Positions 21 to 8,526 of a stretch of 9,887 bases of DNA are shown here, in pieces. Positions within the stretch are counted from its first letter, which is position 1. The number at the start of each line of letters is the position of its first letter. This stretch comes from Desulfobacula sp. (GTDB lineage Bacteria > Desulfobacterota > Desulfobacteria > Desulfobacterales > Desulfobacteraceae), in assembly GCA_027858355.1 (NCBI GenBank), contig JAQICW010000250.1, positions 1 to 9,887 of the forward strand, given 5' to 3'. A model generated the notes under the pieces. The model had not been told where the DNA came from. It saw nothing but the letters and a program-made list of their open reading frames with translations, and made no database searches. The position numbers and the translations under genes were made by a program.

Positions 21-3000
21 TTAAAGGAATTTTTTGTATCCATTTTCCAATTTTTTATGAAGGATCTCCACGACAGGCAACTCCCAGGATTCAATCTTAA
101 CCTTTTTGTAGCTTTTTTCCTCATTTTCCTGTCGACTTCGCCTGATAATACCCAGAACCCTTGCATTTAATATGTTCTGGATATGGGGGCGCCATCGTGC
201 CGACCCTTTTTTTGAAAGCAATGCGATAATTTGACCTGTATCATTTAAAATATAAACCCCGTCTTTTTGTTCCATCAATCTGACTTTTGCACCGGTTTCA
301 AGGTCTGACAAATATCTGTGGATTTCATGGGTGTCCGGGAAAAGACCAGGATAGTTGAGGTAAATATCTGCCATGCCAAGCGTAGAAACCGTCAGATCAT
401 CGGAAAAACCTTTGATTCCGGAGGTCATTATTGCTCTTTCATGGATAAAGCAATTGTTTTTTAAAGACGGGATATGTGGATTGGACGTATTGTCAACATG
501 ACACAGGAAAAGACCTTCTTTTGCCCGGGTCATGCCCACATAAAAAAGTCGTCGTTCCTCCTCTATGTCATTATGTTTCCATCCCCCGTCAAGGATGAAA
601 ATAATAGGAAACTCCATTCCCTTTACACTGTGAACGGTTCCCATGAATACCCCGTTCCCGGTTTTGTGCTCCCGTCTTTCTTCTAAGAGTGTTTCAAGGA
701 CAAAATTCTTTGCCCGGGCAATGGAGATTTCAATATCATTATTGATCTGACACCAGGATTCAAGGATCTGTTCGATTTGATTTGTCCAGGTATTTTTCCT
801 GTCAAACCGGGCCAGGATTTCCTGCTTCAGGTCAAGCGGGCGCAGACTCTTTTTTTTGAACCGGTCCAGGTAACTGACGAACGCCTGTATCTCCCTTACC
901 CTGAACAAGGGGAAGCCGGCACTGTTTTTAATTGAATAGCAAAAATCTATATTCTCTTTTGCCAAAGCCATTCTCACTGCGACAAGGGAAGGGTATGAGA
1001 TTCCCTGTCGTGAAACAACGGCAATATCACCCGGCTTTGTTGCAGGATTCCGGTTAAGTATCTGTTTGATGGTTTCAGCAACAAAGACGGCCTGGGATGC
1101 AATATCCTCTGCATGAACCATCTGGACAAGGCCCGCTCTTTCCATATTTTCAGGTATCTGTTCCCGGGCTTTTCTTTTTTGGTTGATGCGGCAGGATTGA
1201 TCTTTTTTCATCCGGTTTTCATTCAACGCGATAAAGGATGCCGATGCTTGAATAATCGGATATGAGGATCTATAATTTTCCACCATATAAAAGGTTTTGG
1301 CATCATAATCCTGTTTAAATTGTTTAATAAATCTTATATTTGCATTTCGAAACCCATAGATACTCTGGTCATCATCCCCCACTGCCATGATGGAAATTTT
1401 TGTCTCGCTGTCCTGTTCAAGTCTGCCGGTCAAAGCTGAAATAAACTTATACTGTCTTTCGTCAATATCCTGGTATTCATCCACGAGAATATGCCGGAAT
1501 CCGGATAGAAAATATTCCCTTGCCTCTGTAGGGTCAATGCCTGCAAGCTCTTTATCACCGGTTAATATATCAATGGCTTCATCAATGATGCTGTCAAAAT
1601 TCAACCCATTCTCATCAGATCTATAGGGTTTTTCCATAAATGATCTGCCCGTCAGGCGCATGGCAAACCCGTGATAGGTCATTGCCGTGACAAAATTAGC
1701 TCTTTGTCCTGCAAGTTTTCTGATACGTTTTCGAAGTTCCAGCATGGCCTGATGATTAAAGCACAAGACCAGAATCGAAGATGGATCAACAGATTTGGCC
1801 TTGATGAGCCAGGCGCACCTATGCACAATGGTTTTTGTCTTTCCGGAACCTGGACCTGCAAGAACCAGTATGTTTTTCTCAGGTTCTGTCGCAACAATGG
1901 TTTCCTGGATATTGTTTTCAAGGGATTGGATGATCTTTTTATAAGCTTCTTGTGTCATGGCTGTCTGGATGATCTTTTTTTCTCCTGGAAAATACTGGGA
2001 GATGAAAACATCATAGGAAGATGAAAAATAGTCACTGACAAAATTCAAGGCAGTCTTTATCTTTGCAAGACCCAGCCGTGCAAATTTTTCCATGACATGA
2101 ACCTGTACATTCTTCTGATCATAGTGATGGGACAAAGGCTCATAATCGCCTTTGGTATACTGACGTTTATGGCTTTCCGGCAGCATGGTAAGGGTCATGG
2201 CCTGTCTAAACACCCCTAGGCCGTTCTGCAGGGTAATAATTTTTACATCATGGAGATACAATAGACATCTTTCAATCAAAGATCTTGCATCACCCTTAAA
2301 ACTGGAAAGAAAAATATCTGTGCCCATGGCTTCCATGACATCAGTGATAAAAAATTCTGCCAGGACCTCGGCCTGTCCTGTCCTTAAATTCACAGGAAGA
2401 CAGGAAATAAGTGTATCAAGGATAATCCGGGACGCGCGATGCCGCAAGTCCACTCGTTGCCTGATTTCCTGCCAGGAGAATTTCACATACACCTGAAGCT
2501 GATCTATCCCTCTTCTGCCCGTGATTTTCAAGCTTTTCCCAAGACTTTCCCCTTTGTCATTGGCAATTGTCCTTAAAATTCTTTCCACAAAATCAGAGTT
2601 GATCCTGTCAAACCCGCTGTCCTTAAGGCGCTGAGACATAAGACGAAGATTGAATATGTCTGCTCTGTCAGGAGTTAGCCAGGAATCAGGGGCCATGTCT
2701 TCCATAATATGAATCATCTGTTTTTCAACATTTGAAAAATATTCAAAACACTTTGGAGAACTGTCTTTCCCCTTTGGCTTTACAAAAGCGGTCATGACCA
2801 CCCCTTCTCTTACAAGGCCTGCCTTTGCCATGTCAGACAAAAGAGCGATGACATGTCGGGAATCCAGATATTTTTCAGGAAGATCCTTTATCTTTCCTAA
2901 ATCTGCGCAAATATCATCTGCTGAGAGAACCGAGTTGGAATCCGCATTGAACAGGGAATTAAGAATGGTGATAAAAATCGCTTTCATGGTCTTTGAAAGA

Positions 3001-5183
3001 TTGAGCCTCTCCATCTTCAAAACCGCTTCTTTCATATTTTTTACAGCAGGCGTGCCCTTGAAAAAAAGTGTCTGGTTATAGGCTCGTTCCACAAACCCCT
3101 TTCTTTCGAGCCAGGAAACGCCGATCCGGGCTTTTGAATCATTGTCCCCGGAATCCCTGTATCCGATCAGACGCATGATCTCGCCCGGGGTAATGACAAT
3201 TTCAGGAGTTTTGGCACCTTTTTTTTTCAATATCCCAAGGATCTTCTTGATGTCCTTTATGGAAAGCTTTGAATATGCATTTAAAGAAAACTGATTCTCT
3301 ATATCCTCCTGTTCATATAATAGAATGCAGTCAGAGGGTTCCATGTCCCTTCCGGCACGACCTGCCTCCTGCAGGTAATTTTCAAGGGAACCTGGAATAT
3401 CTGCATGGATGACAAGCCGGATATCCTTTTTGTCAATACCCATGCCAAAGGCATTGGTGGCACAGATCACGGGAATTTTTCCCTCAACAAAAGCATCCTG
3501 GATATTTCTTTTGTCTGGTTCACTTCTTCCGGCATGAAACGCTTCAGAATGAATTTCTTTTTCATTTAAAAAAAGGCTTAATTCTTCCGTGTGCCTCCGG
3601 CTTGAACAATACACAATGGCCCCGCCATTTTTCCCTGTAAGACTCTCCTTTATACAATTGGCTATAACATCATATTTTTCATTCCGGGTTACGGGCCATA
3701 CCTGGAAGCTAAGATTTTCCCGCTGAACACCCCCGATAAAACTTTCAAGATCTATGGAGAGCTTTTCCCTTAAATGGCTTATAATCTCTTCAATGACATC
3801 CTTTTTCGCAGTTGCCGTAAACGCACCCACAAGGGCAGGCCTGCTGCAGGCTTTGCTGTAATTTGCAATAAACTCGGAAACATGGAGATAATCCGGTCTG
3901 AAATCATGCCCCCATTTGGACAGGCAATGGGCCTCGTCAAAAACCCAGCTTCCCACATCCCTTGATTTAATCAATTGGGCCACACTGAAATTGCGCAGCT
4001 GCTCAGGGGAAATATATAGAATTCCAATATCACCAAGTCTGACTCTATCCATCACTGCCCCCCGTTCCGGAAGAGTGAGACTGCCGTTGATAGCCGCAGC
4101 TGTTTGCGTGCCCGTGACCCGGTTCAAATTATCCACCTGGTCTTTCATCAATGCCTTAAGCGGCGAAATCACAATGGTCAGCTCGCCCAGTCGATCATAC
4201 CGGTGAAGGGCCGGAATCTGGTAGCAGATGGATTTCCCGCCACCCGTGGGAAGAATGCCAAGCAAAGGGTTCCCCATCAGGTTTGAATCTATGATTTCTT
4301 TTTGAAGCATCCTTCCATCGGCAAGGGCTCTGTAGGTATCAAACCCGAAATATTTTTTCAACAGACCTTCTGAATCATTGTGTTCTTTGCAATACCTGCA
4401 GGATTCATCGCCGCATGAATACCGAAGTTTTCTTATGATATCTAAAATATCCGGGAATTCATGCTTTACCCAGGGGGGTATGATTGAATTGCCCCCTGAG
4501 ACCATGATCCAGGAAAGAACATAGGCCAGGATCGGCCTTTTATCAACATGACCTGAAAAGGTTTCCCAAATCTTGTTAAGGCCTGTCTCACAGACCTTTC
4601 CTTTGGCAAGATCTTGAAATATAGCCTTTGCTTCCTGTTTTTCCGGGATTTTTCCGGTAAGGTTTTGGAACAGGTCGAAATTACCCTTTAAACAGAATCT
4701 TTCATTACCAGAACTATTTATTTCAAAGGCAAAGGCATAAAAAGCGATCAGCCCGGGCTCTCTTTGTCTTAATGCAGAGAATGCAGCCACCTGATCTTCA
4801 AAAACAGCCCGGGCCAGTTTGACATCGGCAACGGGATCATTTTTGCTGTTTTTAACCAGCTTATAATCTTTTACCAGTTTATGATATGGATTTTCAGGAA
4901 AGGCAAGGGGGGATAAAAAAAGGGTATCAATGACAGGAAGGGTTAAAAAACCTGCTTCAGGTAAAATGTCTTTTGCAACAGGCAGATCATGATTGATAAT
5001 ATTGTGACCCAGGATATAATCTGCGCCTTTTGAAAATTGGGACAGATCCCTGAGTGCGGTTTTTATATTCGTTATATTCTTTCTTTCAAAGATTTTATCC
5101 TTGAAAACTGCCCCTATATGATACAAATCCCCTTTGGGAACGGTTTCAAAATCAATTGATAGAATATTCTTGAGCACCAACAT
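21..5183 (-). CDS. DEDD exonuclease - RecQ helicase - UvrD/Rep helicase fusion protein
   Basis: A 1720-residue protein with three enzyme modules, expected to act on DNA in the cytoplasm. Residues 1-135 resemble a DnaQ-like 3'-5' exonuclease: SIDFET (D11, E13), GHNIINHD (D66) and NDPVAD (D120). Residues about 285-625 are an SF2 RecQ core: Walker A TGGGKS (313-318), DEAH (416-419), FTATA (455-459), ATNAFGMGID (575-584) and QEAGRAGRD (605-613). Residues about 1080-1565 are an SF1A UvrD/Rep core: AGPGSGKT (1109-1116), TYHGF, DEYQD (1235-1239), GDDDQSIYGFR, ENYRSS, VHSVKGMEF and YVGMTRAKE. Residues 630-1070 are a linker with winged-helix-like stretches; 1565-1720 are unassigned. Typical RecQ has about 600 residues and UvrD about 720. 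The frame is intact. The ATG overlaps the upstream hydrolase gene by 32 bases, with only a weak GGA-type ribosome site; exonuclease motif I begins at residue 9, so a start much further downstream is unlikely. Repair, recombination or defence roles are inferred. Confidence 0.96.
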   Translation of the reverse strand: MLVLKNILSIDFETVPKGDLYHIGAVFKDKIFERKNITNIKTALRDLSQFSKGADYILGHNIINHDLPVAKDILPEAGFLTLPVIDTLFLSPLAFPENPYHKLVKDYKLVKNSKNDPVADVKLARAVFEDQVAAFSALRQREPGLIAFYAFAFEINSSGNERFCLKGNFDLFQNLTGKIPEKQEAKAIFQDLAKGKVCETGLNKIWETFSGHVDKRPILAYVLSWIMVSGGNSIIPPWVKHEFPDILDIIRKLRYSCGDESCRYCKEHNDSEGLLKKYFGFDTYRALADGRMLQKEIIDSNLMGNPLLGILPTGGGKSICYQIPALHRYDRLGELTIVISPLKALMKDQVDNLNRVTGTQTAAAINGSLTLPERGAVMDRVRLGDIGILYISPEQLRNFSVAQLIKSRDVGSWVFDEAHCLSKWGHDFRPDYLHVSEFIANYSKACSRPALVGAFTATAKKDVIEEIISHLREKLSIDLESFIGGVQRENLSFQVWPVTRNEKYDVIANCIKESLTGKNGGAIVYCSSRRHTEELSLFLNEKEIHSEAFHAGRSEPDKRNIQDAFVEGKIPVICATNAFGMGIDKKDIRLVIHADIPGSLENYLQEAGRAGRDMEPSDCILLYEQEDIENQFSLNAYSKLSIKDIKKILGILKKKGAKTPEIVITPGEIMRLIGYRDSGDNDSKARIGVSWLERKGFVERAYNQTLFFKGTPAVKNMKEAVLKMERLNLSKTMKAIFITILNSLFNADSNSVLSADDICADLGKIKDLPEKYLDSRHVIALLSDMAKAGLVREGVVMTAFVKPKGKDSSPKCFEYFSNVEKQMIHIMEDMAPDSWLTPDRADIFNLRLMSQRLKDSGFDRINSDFVERILRTIANDKGESLGKSLKITGRRGIDQLQVYVKFSWQEIRQRVDLRHRASRIILDTLISCLPVNLRTGQAEVLAEFFITDVMEAMGTDIFLSSFKGDARSLIERCLLYLHDVKIITLQNGLGVFRQAMTLTMLPESHKRQYTKGDYEPLSHHYDQKNVQVHVMEKFARLGLAKIKTALNFVSDYFSSSYDVFISQYFPGEKKIIQTAMTQEAYKKIIQSLENNIQETIVATEPEKNILVLAGPGSGKTKTIVHRCAWLIKAKSVDPSSILVLCFNHQAMLELRKRIRKLAGQRANFVTAMTYHGFAMRLTGRSFMEKPYRSDENGLNFDSIIDEAIDILTGDKELAGIDPTEAREYFLSGFRHILVDEYQDIDERQYKFISALTGRLEQDSETKISIMAVGDDDQSIYGFRNANIRFIKQFKQDYDAKTFYMVENYRSSYPIIQASASFIALNENRMKKDQSCRINQKRKAREQIPENMERAGLVQMVHAEDIASQAVFVAETIKQILNRNPATKPGDIAVVSRQGISYPSLVAVRMALAKENIDFCYSIKNSAGFPLFRVREIQAFVSYLDRFKKKSLRPLDLKQEILARFDRKNTWTNQIEQILESWCQINNDIEISIARAKNFVLETLLEERREHKTGNGVFMGTVHSVKGMEFPIIFILDGGWKHNDIEEERRLFYVGMTRAKEGLFLCHVDNTSNPHIPSLKNNCFIHERAIMTSGIKGFSDDLTVSTLGMADIYLNYPGLFPDTHEIHRYLSDLETGAKVRLMEQKDGVYILNDTGQIIALLSKKGSARWRPHIQNILNARVLGIIRRSRQENEEKSYKKVKIESWELPVVEILHKKLENGYKKFL

Positions 5184-6009
5184 GCGCTTCTATCCATGTT
5201 TTAACGTCATTCAATACCTGCTCATGTTCTGGTTCATTAAAGATTTCATGGTAAAGGCCAGAATACATTTTTATGGTTTTATCGGTTGAGCTGACCAAAT
5301 CATAGAGTAACCGGGCACCGCCCGGATCAACCAATTTGTCAGCACTTCCCTGGGCAATCAGTATCGGCAAGGTTATCTGTGCGGCCTGTTTGGTTACATC
5401 CTGCATGGTTTTGATTATTTCTGCGCCAAGCCTTGCCGTGGCTTTTCCCGTATACACCAGCGGATCATTGACGTACGCTTCTACCACGGCCGGGTCTTGG
5501 CTTACACCTTCTGAATCCAATTGAACTAGTCCAGCCCTGGGTATTATTATTGAAAGCATCTTTGCTATAAAAATGGTGGCCTGGGAGATATTGTCAGGCA
5601 CTTTGATACTTGGCGCTGAAAGAACAGCGCCAGCCAGTTCATCCTGATGCTTAAGCAGGTATGCTGCACTAATCAATCCGCCCATACTGTGCCCGATCAA
5701 AAATATGGGTCGTTTAGGATGCCATGCCCGGATCATGTCAAAATAGGTCTTAAGGGTTTTTGTGTAATCCTGGAATCTTTCCACGAACACTCTTTTGCCA
5801 TCTGACTTTCCATGTCCCATGTGATCAATTCCATAGACTGCATAGCCCGATGGAACCAGGTGGTTGACAAGATTCATATATCGTCCACTGTGCTCGGCCA
5901 ATCCATGAACAACTAAAAGTATGGCTTTAGGCTCTTCTTCAGGTAACCAATATTGATAGTAAATATTGGTATCCCGAACACCTTTGAATCTTTCATCTTG
6001 ATGTTTCAT
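5152..6009 (-). CDS. Alpha/beta hydrolase, monoacylglycerol lipase / lysophospholipase-like
   Basis: A 285-residue serine hydrolase of the Hydrolase_4 (S33-related) group, likely splitting monoacylglycerol, lysophospholipid or another carboxylic ester. The oxyanion-region motif HGLAEHSGRY (35-44) is the hallmark of monoglyceride lipases. The nucleophile elbow is GHSMGG (106-111, Ser108). The predicted acid is Asp224 in GSADKLVD and the catalytic histidine is His254 in GLYHEIFNEP, spaced as in human monoglyceride lipase. The length is normal for the family. I see no signal peptide, so it is probably cytoplasmic. A strong AAGGAG site lies 6 bases before the ATG. It sits 53 bases after the transporter gene and its 3' end overlaps the helicase start by 32 bases, so it probably shares their transcript. 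Fold and triad are secure; the exact substrate is not. Confidence 0.93.
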   Translation of the reverse strand: MKHQDERFKGVRDTNIYYQYWLPEEEPKAILLVVHGLAEHSGRYMNLVNHLVPSGYAVYGIDHMGHGKSDGKRVFVERFQDYTKTLKTYFDMIRAWHPKRPIFLIGHSMGGLISAAYLLKHQDELAGAVLSAPSIKVPDNISQATIFIAKMLSIIIPRAGLVQLDSEGVSQDPAVVEAYVNDPLVYTGKATARLGAEIIKTMQDVTKQAAQITLPILIAQGSADKLVDPGGARLLYDLVSSTDKTIKMYSGLYHEIFNEPEHEQVLNDVKTWIEAHVGAQEYSIN

Positions 6010-6062: not shown

Positions 6063-7352
6063 CTATAGCGTTTTTTTATTGAACCCGATCCGCTGATCAG
6101 GAAAATCCGTATCCTGGAATGCGGAATGTTCTATATAAAGGTCTTTTTTATAATAAAAGGAGCCTGTAAACAATAAGACTCCTGCAAGGAATGCAAATAT
6201 GGGCAGGATTGTCAGGGCCTTATCAAGACCGTATGTGTCGGAAAGCTGCCCAATGACAATGGGAGCAAGGCTTGAACCGAACAGGTGCTGGATGATAATA
6301 TTCAGGCTTAAAGAGACAGCACAAAGCCCGGGGTGCACGACATCCTGGGTAACGGCTACGCCGGACGGAACAAAGGCCACGGCAGTTATGCCGATGAAAA
6401 GCAGGACAATATATTGAGCACTCCCCTGTAAAAAAGCAAAGGCGATAAAAAGCAGTATTCCCGTAAGAATGGATGACAGGGCCGGAAACAAAAGTCGGGC
6501 ATTTTCTCTTTTTTTCGACCATAGATCTGACAGAAAACCACCCAGAGGAGCGCCAATTATTGCAAGAACCATGATGGAGCTGGCTTTCATGCTTGCCTTG
6601 TCCATGGCAAGATCGTCAAATCTATGAAAATATGTGGGCAGCCAGGTTAGAAGAGATGTGGTGATAAAAACATTTAAGGTAAAGGCCAGGTTGTTGTAAA
6701 TCAGGGTCTTATTATGGGTAAATTGTCTTGCCATATCAATGAATAGCATTTTTGTTTCTTTGCCGGTTTTTTCCTTTTTAGTGAGCTGGATGGTTTTATA
6801 ATCTTTGACAAAATAAAATATTACGGCAAGGATCAGGCCGGGAATAGCCACAAGCCCGAAGGCATGGCGCCAGCCAAAGTTATGGGCGACAAATCCTCCT
6901 ATCCCAATGCCAAGGGCACTTCCAAGGGGAATGGATGCATTCCACAGCCCAAGTATTCTTGCTCTTTTTTCCTTTGGAAAATTGGCAGATAGCATGGCTG
7001 TTCCGCCAGGGGCATAACCTGCTTCTCCAATGCCAATGGCTGTTCTGGCAATTAACAGCTGTGAAAACGTTTTCGTGAATGCACAGGCTAAAGTGGCCAT
7101 GCTCCAGAATGCAGCCATGATGGAAATGCTTTTTGTACGACTCCAGCGATCAACAAGGATGGAAACAGGAAAAGAAAAAATCAGAATCGACCAGTATACA
7201 CTGGACATAAGAAGTCCGCACTGCGCATCCGTCAAGCCCATATCCTGTTGCAGGTAGGGAAAAAGGGATACAATAATCATGCGATCCATGTAATCAAACA
7301 TGTAAAGGGCGAACAGCAGCCAGAAAATAATCCAGGATTGTTTTTTAGTCAT
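6063..7352 (-). CDS. Major facilitator superfamily transporter (Spinster/ACS-like)
   Basis: A 429-residue polytopic inner-membrane protein with about twelve hydrophobic segments in two halves, separated by a charged loop near residues 183-212 (KDYKTIQLTKKEKTGKE). Family marks are DYMDR at the end of helix 1 (20-24), a motif-A-like VDRWSRT after helix 2 (68-73), RTAIGIGEAGYAPGG (103-117) with Glu110 in helix 4, and GWRHAF (160-165) before helix 6. The second half repeats motif A as GGFLSDLWSKKREN (271-284). This pattern is typical of Spinster-like and anion:cation symporter MFS proteins, which take up organic anions or small metabolites, usually with H+ or Na+. The ATG overlaps the URO-D gene stop in ATGACTAA, implying translational coupling, and AAGGGG lies 7 bases before it. 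The cargo may be the substrate of the URO-D-like enzyme, but that is only inferred from the pairing. Confidence 0.93.
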   Translation of the reverse strand: MTKKQSWIIFWLLFALYMFDYMDRMIIVSLFPYLQQDMGLTDAQCGLLMSSVYWSILIFSFPVSILVDRWSRTKSISIMAAFWSMATLACAFTKTFSQLLIARTAIGIGEAGYAPGGTAMLSANFPKEKRARILGLWNASIPLGSALGIGIGGFVAHNFGWRHAFGLVAIPGLILAVIFYFVKDYKTIQLTKKEKTGKETKMLFIDMARQFTHNKTLIYNNLAFTLNVFITTSLLTWLPTYFHRFDDLAMDKASMKASSIMVLAIIGAPLGGFLSDLWSKKRENARLLFPALSSILTGILLFIAFAFLQGSAQYIVLLFIGITAVAFVPSGVAVTQDVVHPGLCAVSLSLNIIIQHLFGSSLAPIVIGQLSDTYGLDKALTILPIFAFLAGVLLFTGSFYYKKDLYIEHSAFQDTDFPDQRIGFNKKTL

Positions 7353-8445
7353 TATTTAACCCCTTTTTATATTGGCCATGTTTGCGCACAGCCTCAAACA
7401 TGGCAATGCAGTTTTCAGGATTAACCCCGGGGTGCAGGGAATTTGAAGAACAGATAATCAGACCGCCGCCCTTTGCCCCGTCGGCAATGGCCTGTATGAC
7501 AGCCAGCTCAACTTGTTCCGGGGTGCCCGTGGGTAGAAGATCCACACAGTCAATATTGCCCAGAAGGCAGATTTTATCACCGCAGTATTCTCTCATTTTT
7601 TTTATTTCCATGCCAGCCTGAGGCTCCAGGGGATTGATCCCATCATAACCCGTCTCAATAAGGATGTCCATAAGGGGCCAGAGGTTGCCGTCAGAGTGTC
7701 TGACCACTTTTAGGCCTTTTTCATGGGCTTTGTCAACGATCTGCCTGTTATAGTGATTTACAAATGTTTTAAAATGCGCCGGAGATATCATTGGGCTTTT
7801 GGTGGATGCAATATCATCCTCAATTACCAGCACATCAAGACCGGCTTCAACCAGCAGGTCAAGCTGGGCAAGATTGAATTCCAGCATCATTTGGGCAATC
7901 GCATGGACAAATTCAGGATTGCTAATCATATTCATCATGAGATTGGTCATGCCGATTAATCGCCAGGAACGAACAAAAATCCCCCGCATGAGCCAGAAAC
8001 TTGCTTTTTGTCCCTTAAATCTGTCAATGGCAAGATGAAGAAGTCCCAGGTCCGCAGTACCTGGTACAGGGGGCTTGAATGCTTTAAGTTCATCAAAGGT
8101 TTTTATGGGGTGGCCAACAGGGACGGGAATGCCATGTTCCGATAGTTTATAGATCACACCAAATCCATCTTTGACATGGAGATCATCCACTCTTGTCTCA
8201 TGGCCGATTTCAAATGTTGTCATACCGTCAATGTCAAAATGCTCATGGATCATGAAAAGGGTATCCACAAGCTTGAGTTGATCATTCACATTCATGAGCC
8301 TGAAATCCTTTGGTTCAGGAAGGCCGTCTGTTAAGTGTTTTCCGATTCCGATAATGGGGGCCTCGTTAATGCCGTGGATATACAGAGGCACGCAATCGGG
8401 TTCTTTGACTTCAAGGGCAGTGAGGATTCTTTGTTTTCCGTTCAT
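7345..8445 (-). CDS. Uroporphyrinogen decarboxylase-superfamily protein (MtaA/methyltransferase-like paralogue)
   Basis: A 366-residue TIM-barrel protein of the URO-D/MtaA superfamily, which contains haem-pathway decarboxylases and cobamide-dependent methyltransferases. Family marks are the opening MNGKQRILTALEVKEPDCVP, VLVIEDDIAST (206-215), VVRHSDGN (247-254), INPLEPQAGMEI (270-281), LLGNIDC (294-300) and the closing LIICSSNSLHPGVNPEN. The HemE substrate-binding MRQAGR signature is absent after the N terminus (LYIHGINEAP instead), so it is not the haem enzyme. In MtaA-type enzymes zinc is bound by HxC plus a later Cys. Here the HxC site reads His250-Ser-Asp252, with Cys332 (IICSS) as the possible later ligand. 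The frame stays open to a TTG at 8514, but the ATG at 8445 has GGAG 8 bases upstream and gives the usual family N terminus. It is probably the first gene of the operon. Substrate unknown; demethylation or methyl transfer is inferred. Confidence 0.88.
   Translation of the reverse strand: MNGKQRILTALEVKEPDCVPLYIHGINEAPIIGIGKHLTDGLPEPKDFRLMNVNDQLKLVDTLFMIHEHFDIDGMTTFEIGHETRVDDLHVKDGFGVIYKLSEHGIPVPVGHPIKTFDELKAFKPPVPGTADLGLLHLAIDRFKGQKASFWLMRGIFVRSWRLIGMTNLMMNMISNPEFVHAIAQMMLEFNLAQLDLLVEAGLDVLVIEDDIASTKSPMISPAHFKTFVNHYNRQIVDKAHEKGLKVVRHSDGNLWPLMDILIETGYDGINPLEPQAGMEIKKMREYCGDKICLLGNIDCVDLLPTGTPEQVELAVIQAIADGAKGGGLIICSSNSLHPGVNPENCIAMFEAVRKHGQYKKGLNND
7360..7365 (-). promoter_or_regulatory. Ribosome binding site of the transporter gene
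   Basis: AAGGGG on the minus strand, 7 bases before the ATG at 7352 and inside the end of the URO-D-like gene. Together with the 8-base gene overlap it supports this start and coupled translation. Confidence 0.6.
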
Positions 8446-8453
8446 GGTTTTGT

Positions 8454-8457
8454 CTCC
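8454..8457 (-). promoter_or_regulatory. Ribosome binding site deciding the URO-D-like gene start
   Basis: GGAG (minus strand) 8 bases before the ATG at 8445. No comparable site precedes the in-frame TTG at 8514, so the shorter 366-residue protein is preferred. Confidence 0.65.
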
Positions 8458-8526
8458 ATGGGTTGCATAATTTGTCCAAGATTTTTCTTTTGTCTTAATG
8501 CCTTTCAAACTCAATACTACCCTGAT

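Follow-up and report, generated by a model that had tools for sequence, protein, structure and literature searches.

Helicases of both the RecQ and the UvrD family travel 3'-5'. RecBCD employs two motors of opposite polarity, AddAB combines one motor with two PD-(D/E)XK nucleases, and WRN, which has no UvrD core, carries a DEDDy exonuclease together with RQC and HRDC domains. According to PMC11981726, Bacillus subtilis DinG carries a DEDDh motif. This ExoDinG protein degrades single-stranded DNA 3'-5', with its own ATPase neither stimulating nor inhibiting the reaction, and has been implicated in overcoming replication stress, as set out in PMC12525004. The window analysed here, a 9,887-nucleotide (nt) stretch of DNA from Desulfobacula sp., contains a gene (positions 21..5183, minus strand) whose 1720-amino-acid (aa) product joins a predicted DEDD exonuclease, a RecQ-type superfamily 2 (SF2) helicase core and a UvrD/Rep-type superfamily 1A (SF1A) helicase core, in that order. 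The fusion recurs across phyla, is patchily distributed and is carried by plasmids. We give about an even chance to the reading that it is a stand-alone, mobile, 3'-end-processing double helicase serving accessory repair or anti-mobile-DNA defence.

The frame runs from position 5183 to 21 over 1720 codons, from an ATG start to a TAA stop, with a GTG at codon 3 as an alternative start; the gene is delimited by its open reading frame, family matches and homologues of the same layout. The original prediction that three enzymes share one unbroken frame is borne out, with both helicases identified by Pfam and the exonuclease by its predicted fold. The DEAD and UvrD Pfam domains are both present in 117 of the 120 listed homologues, which clears the doubt, raised at the outset, that relatives might prove to be separate genes. 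The layout cannot be ascribed to chance because it is conserved across phyla, and assembly artefact and chance fusion were both rejected on these grounds. Several of the closest named homologues listed belong to Desulfobacula, Desulfobacter or Desulfobacterales. A search of openly licensed papers found no description of a RecQ-UvrD fusion and, as had been suspected, no characterised member of the family; the available parts of papers on Deinococcus, Porphyromonas, YprA and Kineococcus likewise yielded no such fusion.

The exonuclease core (residues 4-141, positions 4761..5174, on the minus strand like every feature of the gene) gave no Pfam match even at an expectation value (E) of up to 10, and was assigned from the predicted model, fold matches, conservation and a profile match to solved exonucleases. 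The model of residues 1-290, with a mean predicted local distance difference test (pLDDT) score of 87.4, resembles solved DEDD exonucleases, with Staphylococcus aureus DinG (9ii8) aligning to model range 1-263 over 221 residues; folds were compared by Foldseek and VIA-align, and these statements hold among the matches listed. The predicted RNase H-like fold and the four acidic ligands are both present, pointing to a DEDD-class domain. Residues D11, E13, D66 and D120 are kept in 109, 109, 110 and 110 rows, respectively, of a 110-row alignment (the window protein and 109 of the 120 listed homologues, of at least 1,690 aa), one row being gapped at D11 and E13. All four are also present in every row of a 37-row set from several phyla, drawn from the 30 loci L001-L030 (26 used), the listed homologues (10 used) and the window protein; L016 (longer neighbour taken), L027 and L030 (partial matches close to the end of a contig) and L029 (broken frame) are absent from it.

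The earlier claim that all motifs are complete stands for these acidic ligands but fails at the catalytic His of DEDDh exonucleases, in whose expected position lies Asn115. At this residue, which lies five positions ahead of the final Asp, 104 of the 110 rows have Asn and 6 have Ser; in the diverse set 35 rows have Asn and 2 have Ser, and Asn is found without exception in alignments A4 and A5, which hold 20 and 19 loci besides the window (21 for A3, the linker profile). A profile alignment pairs residue 115 with a His of solved chain 9l85. The next position, 116, carries Asp or Asn in 107 of the 110 rows and Tyr in none. Judged by these residues, the domain is DEDD yet neither DEDDh nor DEDDy, and the same search of openly licensed papers found no Asn variant of DEDDh. 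D86-T87-L88 and P99-Y100-H101 are near invariant (110-row alignment, A4), and at a guess H101 could replace the missing catalytic base. A helical extension in the predicted model (residues 142-254, positions 4422..4760) lies behind the core.

Directly N-terminal of the RecQ core lies a cysteine cluster, C257-x4-C262-x2-C265 (positions 4389..4415), a likely metal site kept in all 110 aligned rows. The RecQ-type SF2 helicase core (residues 266-641, positions 3261..4388) is present by Pfam (DEAD and Helicase_C at 293-612), by the NCBIfam model recQ_fam (296.8 bits, above the cut-off of 219.8) and by a predicted model matching RecQ, BLM and RECQL5 chains, with the RecQ equivalog TIGR01389 reaching 354 bits, below its curated cut-off of 640.2. 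String search located PTGGGKS at residue 312, DEAHC at 416 and QEAGRAGRD at 605, and found no cysteine between residues 620 and 758. Pfam searches, at E 0.001 over the full chain and relaxed to E 10 over residues 637-1090, detected no RecQ zinc-binding, RQC or HRDC domain, although the linker may yet contain a remote winged helix.

The UvrD/Rep-type SF1A core (residues 1085-1568, positions 480..1931) is identified by Pfam (UvrD domains at 1090-1561), NCBIfam and conserved motifs. Walker A, DEYQD, GDDDQ, NYRS and VI motifs were all found, string search placing GPGSGKT at 1110, VDEYQD at 1234, GDDDQSIYGFR at 1269, NYRS at 1303, GTVHSVKGMEF at 1515 and YVGMTRA at 1548. Equivalog scores fall below their cut-offs for PcrA (194.9 vs 911.2 bits), UvrD (168.9 vs 1144.45) and Rep (139.5 vs 951.45). 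In alignment with PcrA, residues 1085-1181 of the fusion correspond to PcrA 9-103 and residues 1220-1392 to PcrA 208-359, so that the fusion lacks about 65 residues that PcrA has between its first and second motif blocks, where subdomain 1B lies.

The two helicase cores are separated by a family-typical linker (residues 642-1084, positions 1932..3260), delineated by predicted secondary structure and profile A3; with the RecQ core ending near 641 and the UvrD core starting near 1085 it spans about 443 residues, in agreement with the roughly 450 predicted. It has no Pfam match above a cut-off, and profile comparison links it only weakly to winged-helix regulators (best E 5e-4). Predicted helix/strand units repeat near 642-707, 717-801, 846-900 and 946-1000, and a long predicted helix closes the linker at 1011-1054; the repeated units may be winged helices. 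The C-terminal tail (residues 1569-1720, positions 24..479) has no assigned family, its single Pfam match (E 0.031) lying below its cut-off.

Six phyla were sampled, 1,436 genomes in all, and 50 of these give strong matches to A3 (best E <1e-50); the six centre genomes are carriers by choice, leaving 44 of 1,430 others. The matches comprise 15/398 genomes in the phylum of Methylobacter (L009), 14/296 in that of Desertivirga (L022), 12/299 in that of Acetivibrio (L029), 4/145 in that of the Verrucomicrobiia locus (L013), 4/52 in that of the L012 bacterium and 1/246 in that of Acidimicrobiaceae (L030), the last being the centre itself, with pieces on two contigs. Weak matches, with E between 1e-5 and 1e-3 in frames 135-366 aa long, were discarded as winged-helix look-alikes, affecting 5, 13, 13 and 15 genomes in the L009, L022, L029 and L030 phyla, 10 in the L013 phylum and none in the L012 phylum. 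Frames of at least 1,600 aa are found in 14 of 15 carriers in the Methylobacter phylum and in all 14 in the Desertivirga phylum. Broken copies occur in Bacillota, the Acetivibrio phylum: the frame of G805 is split and without most of its UvrD part, G918 has lost the RecQ stretch, G826 carries an internal stop and the frame of L029 is broken; some of these may be assembly errors. Loci L132 and L134 are copies in which the RecQ stretch is absent or the frame split, which would fit a conditionally useful gene.

The fusion protein is found at 80% coverage or more in 25 plasmid records, the listed carriers being alpha- and gammaproteobacteria, cyanobacteria and Bacteroidota. Typing marks two of the cyanobacterial carrier plasmids as conjugative, and a transposase gene lies inside the matched span of one plasmid copy (Nostoc ATCC 53789). 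None of the 109 matching phage records reaches 80% coverage, and origin as a phage gene was rejected because no phage record holds most of the protein; a viral collection yielded one contig, found with patterns from the window protein alone. Some carriers (G001, G092, G431, G439, G518) have the fusion on contigs of 1-5 Mb. In a quick 34-row tree with two very long branches, a Clostridiales copy nests among those of Bacteroidota (support 90), and a copy from Verrucomicrobiia is basal to a mostly proteobacterial and Desulfobacterales group (support 98).

A separate RecQ above the cut-off was found in 28/38 carriers against 19/38 non-carriers, with corresponding values of 15/15 and 14/15 in Pseudomonadota, 12/14 and 3/13 in Bacteroidota, and 1/9 and 2/10 in Bacillota, where carriers G918, G924 and G994 were set aside. 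Replacement of a housekeeping RecQ was rejected for Pseudomonadota and Bacteroidota, since 27 of their 29 carriers keep a separate one. For the same reason the fusion gene is regarded as accessory, and its description as accessory, patchy and mobile is well supported. Five further RecQ-type matches lie in frames of ~1,210-1,270 aa (four Bacillota and one Bacteroidota: G719:C21, G834:C5, G805:C16, G709:C49, G414:C2), another large RecQ-containing architecture.

In the mechanism proposed for the double helicase, the RecQ core would open branched or tailed duplex DNA with a presumed 3'-5' polarity, the winged-helix-like linker would grip the opened junction, and the UvrD core, likewise expected to travel 3'-5' on single strands, would strip or displace what the RecQ core had exposed. 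The N-terminal DEDD domain, served by two metals bound by D11, E13, D66 and D120, would trim, or at least grip, the free 3' end. Because both motors share a polarity, they would either act in relay along a single strand or each take one arm of a fork or branch, unlike the RecBCD motors, which run on the two strands of one end. The host would benefit conditionally, through repair of certain structures or through the dismantling of foreign or replicating mobile DNA.

Several points weigh against this reading. No constant partner or context backs a single biological role, and in Bacillota, where only one of nine carriers has a separate RecQ, the fusion could stand in for it. Loss of the catalytic His to Asn could signal a weak or dead nuclease, and the H101/K105 stretch is poorly predicted, with pLDDT <50 at 101-113 and 105-111 in the two models. 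The cysteine cluster is absent from two of the 37 diverse rows (L005 and L026). A pseudo-exonuclease DinG class exists, although with its acidic residues lost, according to PMC11981726.

Four alternatives were weighed, three concerning the role and one the mechanism, and their likelihoods need not add to one. A single-gene anti-phage or anti-plasmid defence, which would sense replicating or recombining foreign DNA, unwind it and degrade it from its 3' ends, is a credible candidate that stops short of being probable. It agrees with the patchy distribution, the plasmid carriage and the broken copies in Bacillota, and defence genes neighbour some of the copies: a type I restriction set immediately after the fusion in Desertivirga (L022), type I restriction genes nearby on an Allochromatium plasmid, type I-D CRISPR genes ~4 kb away on a Thiothrix plasmid, a 1963-aa frame matching PDC-S37 and Hhe directly before the fusion in Tritonibacter (L016, 1969-7857) and an IetS-like gene in Prevotella (L024). 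Four plasmid copies have toxin-antitoxin or HipA-type genes no more than 12 kb away. Neighbours of the fusion (97 proteins) matched 122 PADLOC models, compared with 9 for neighbours of ordinary RecQ (102 of 120 proteins aligned, 17 of 20 loci). This contrast is nevertheless weak because the models are highly redundant: at a laxer limit 102 models hit three L022 restriction genes alone, and the bulk of the 122 probably describe one restriction locus redundantly. Checked one by one in a non-random selection, 5 of 10 large neighbour proteins matched, from 3 of 7 loci. The fusion itself matches 76 PADLOC models at E 0.01, but the 25 listed each cover one helicase core, and the window's own neighbours are metabolic. 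The gene context, proposed at the outset as the arbiter between defence and repair, gives a mixed answer, with metabolic genes in the window and restriction, CRISPR, Hhe-like and Iet-like genes beside some relatives.

Other genes were seen near plasmid copies and relatives. On a Scytonema plasmid (L144, 492-8458), four genes of shared orientation, one helicase-like, one for a phospholipase D and two unknown, lie shortly before the fusion and could form a defence cluster. WYL-domain regulator genes are adjacent in Pseudanabaena (L146, 7555-8760) and ~3.4 kb away in Thiothrix (L007, 20391-21182). Separate genes annotated as 3'-5' exonucleases lie within ~9 kb of two plasmid copies (L002, 25608-26225; L007, 18562-19143).

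An accessory repair enzyme, acting like WRN, ExoDinG and MrfAB on stalled forks, gaps or damaged 3' ends, is every bit as credible as defence. Its design resembles ExoDinG and WRN, B. subtilis DinG has been tied to overcoming replication stress (PMC12525004), and the gene appears solitary: a constant operon partner was sought and none was seen in the 12 annotated plasmid regions out of 13 retrieved or among the 97 neighbour proteins from 19 loci. Two Cereibacter plasmids share neighbours, being related, with no other recurring neighbour seen, and among the matches listed the commonest Pfam families of the 97 proteins are helix-turn-helix domains, in 4. The metabolic surroundings in the window are also in line with repair, consisting of an alpha/beta hydrolase (Hydrolase_4 by Pfam, positions 5152..6009, minus strand), a major facilitator superfamily (MFS) transporter, a URO-D family protein and a plus-strand acyltransferase. 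The hydrolase gene precedes the fusion and its stop overlaps the fusion frame by 32 nt; it is not considered part of the system, because only one of the 12 plasmid regions (L143) has such a neighbour, on the opposite strand. A core repair role is opposed by the patchy presence and by the separate RecQ above the cut-off that 27 of the 29 carriers in Pseudomonadota and Bacteroidota keep, and no recurring damage-linked neighbour was seen. As a separate observation, the URO-D family protein (window 7345-8514) is nearer to MtaA/CmuA methyltransferases than to HemE and adjoins the MFS transporter, a pair that perhaps functions in methyl transfer.

That the exonuclease domain is dead and merely binds 3' ends, leaving a pure double helicase, is possible but on balance doubtful. 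The general-base position is Asn or Ser throughout the diverse rows, in a column that aligns with a His of 9l85; against this, the four ligands, D86-T87-L88 and P99-Y100-H101 are almost invariant, beyond what decayed domains usually retain. A factor for maintenance or transfer of mobile elements, acting in their replication, recombination or the exclusion of rival elements, is very unlikely, for although 25 plasmid records carry most of the fusion and two of the cyanobacterial plasmids are typed conjugative, several carriers have it on 1-5 Mb contigs, phage records with 80% coverage number zero of 109 and the viral collection gave one contig.

The double-helicase reading can also be framed more boldly, as a new single-chain helicase-nuclease class in which a His/Tyr-free DEDDn exonuclease and two same-polarity motors from two superfamilies would provide cross-phylum, one-gene defence against mobile DNA; this we consider rather unlikely. 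The fusion makes two questions testable, namely what purpose two same-polarity motors serve in one chain and whether a DEDD exonuclease is able to function with Asn as its base residue.

Set against known systems, the protein is rated as belonging with the helicase-nuclease fusions, in a layout for which no description was found in the openly licensed papers searched. The comparison with RecBCD and AddAB originally proposed is weak, and a likeness in logic was put aside. Motors and nuclease are likewise combined in one machine, but the fusion is one chain, both its motors are of 3'-5' families, its nuclease has another fold, DEDD, with an unusual active site, and, since the RecQ and UvrD families share their polarity, its two motors could not be paired in opposite directions as RecB and RecD are. 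Similarity to RecBCD and AddAB proteins is confined to single domains, with no PD-(D/E)XK nuclease among the Pfam matches of the chain and no constant RecC/AddB-like partner among the neighbours in the 12 plasmid regions and 19 loci. Among PADLOC models, DpdF and PsyrT are among the best for the RecQ part and GajB for the UvrD part, one core each. Canonical bacterial RecQ shares the helicase core and differs by the zinc, RQC and HRDC domains that were not detected here, while UvrD, PcrA and Rep share the SF1A motor motifs and differ by the ~65 additional residues between motif blocks.

The nearest designs are WRN, MrfAB and ExoDinG. In WRN an exonuclease likewise precedes a RecQ core, which matches that of the fusion. 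MrfAB, consisting of the YprA helicase and the YprB exonuclease, similarly pairs a repair-related helicase with a 3'-5' exonuclease, as described in PMC12458937; there, however, the exonuclease works with, or is joined to, a single helicase from another family, with no RecQ and UvrD pair. ExoDinG is the nearest of the three and the top exonuclease fold match, tied with two lower rows: in S. aureus and B. subtilis DinG an N-terminal DEDD 3'-5' exonuclease is likewise mounted on a superfamily 2 helicase, differing from the fusion in that this helicase is DinG/XPD-like, whereas the Desulfobacula protein joins its exonuclease to both a RecQ and a UvrD core.
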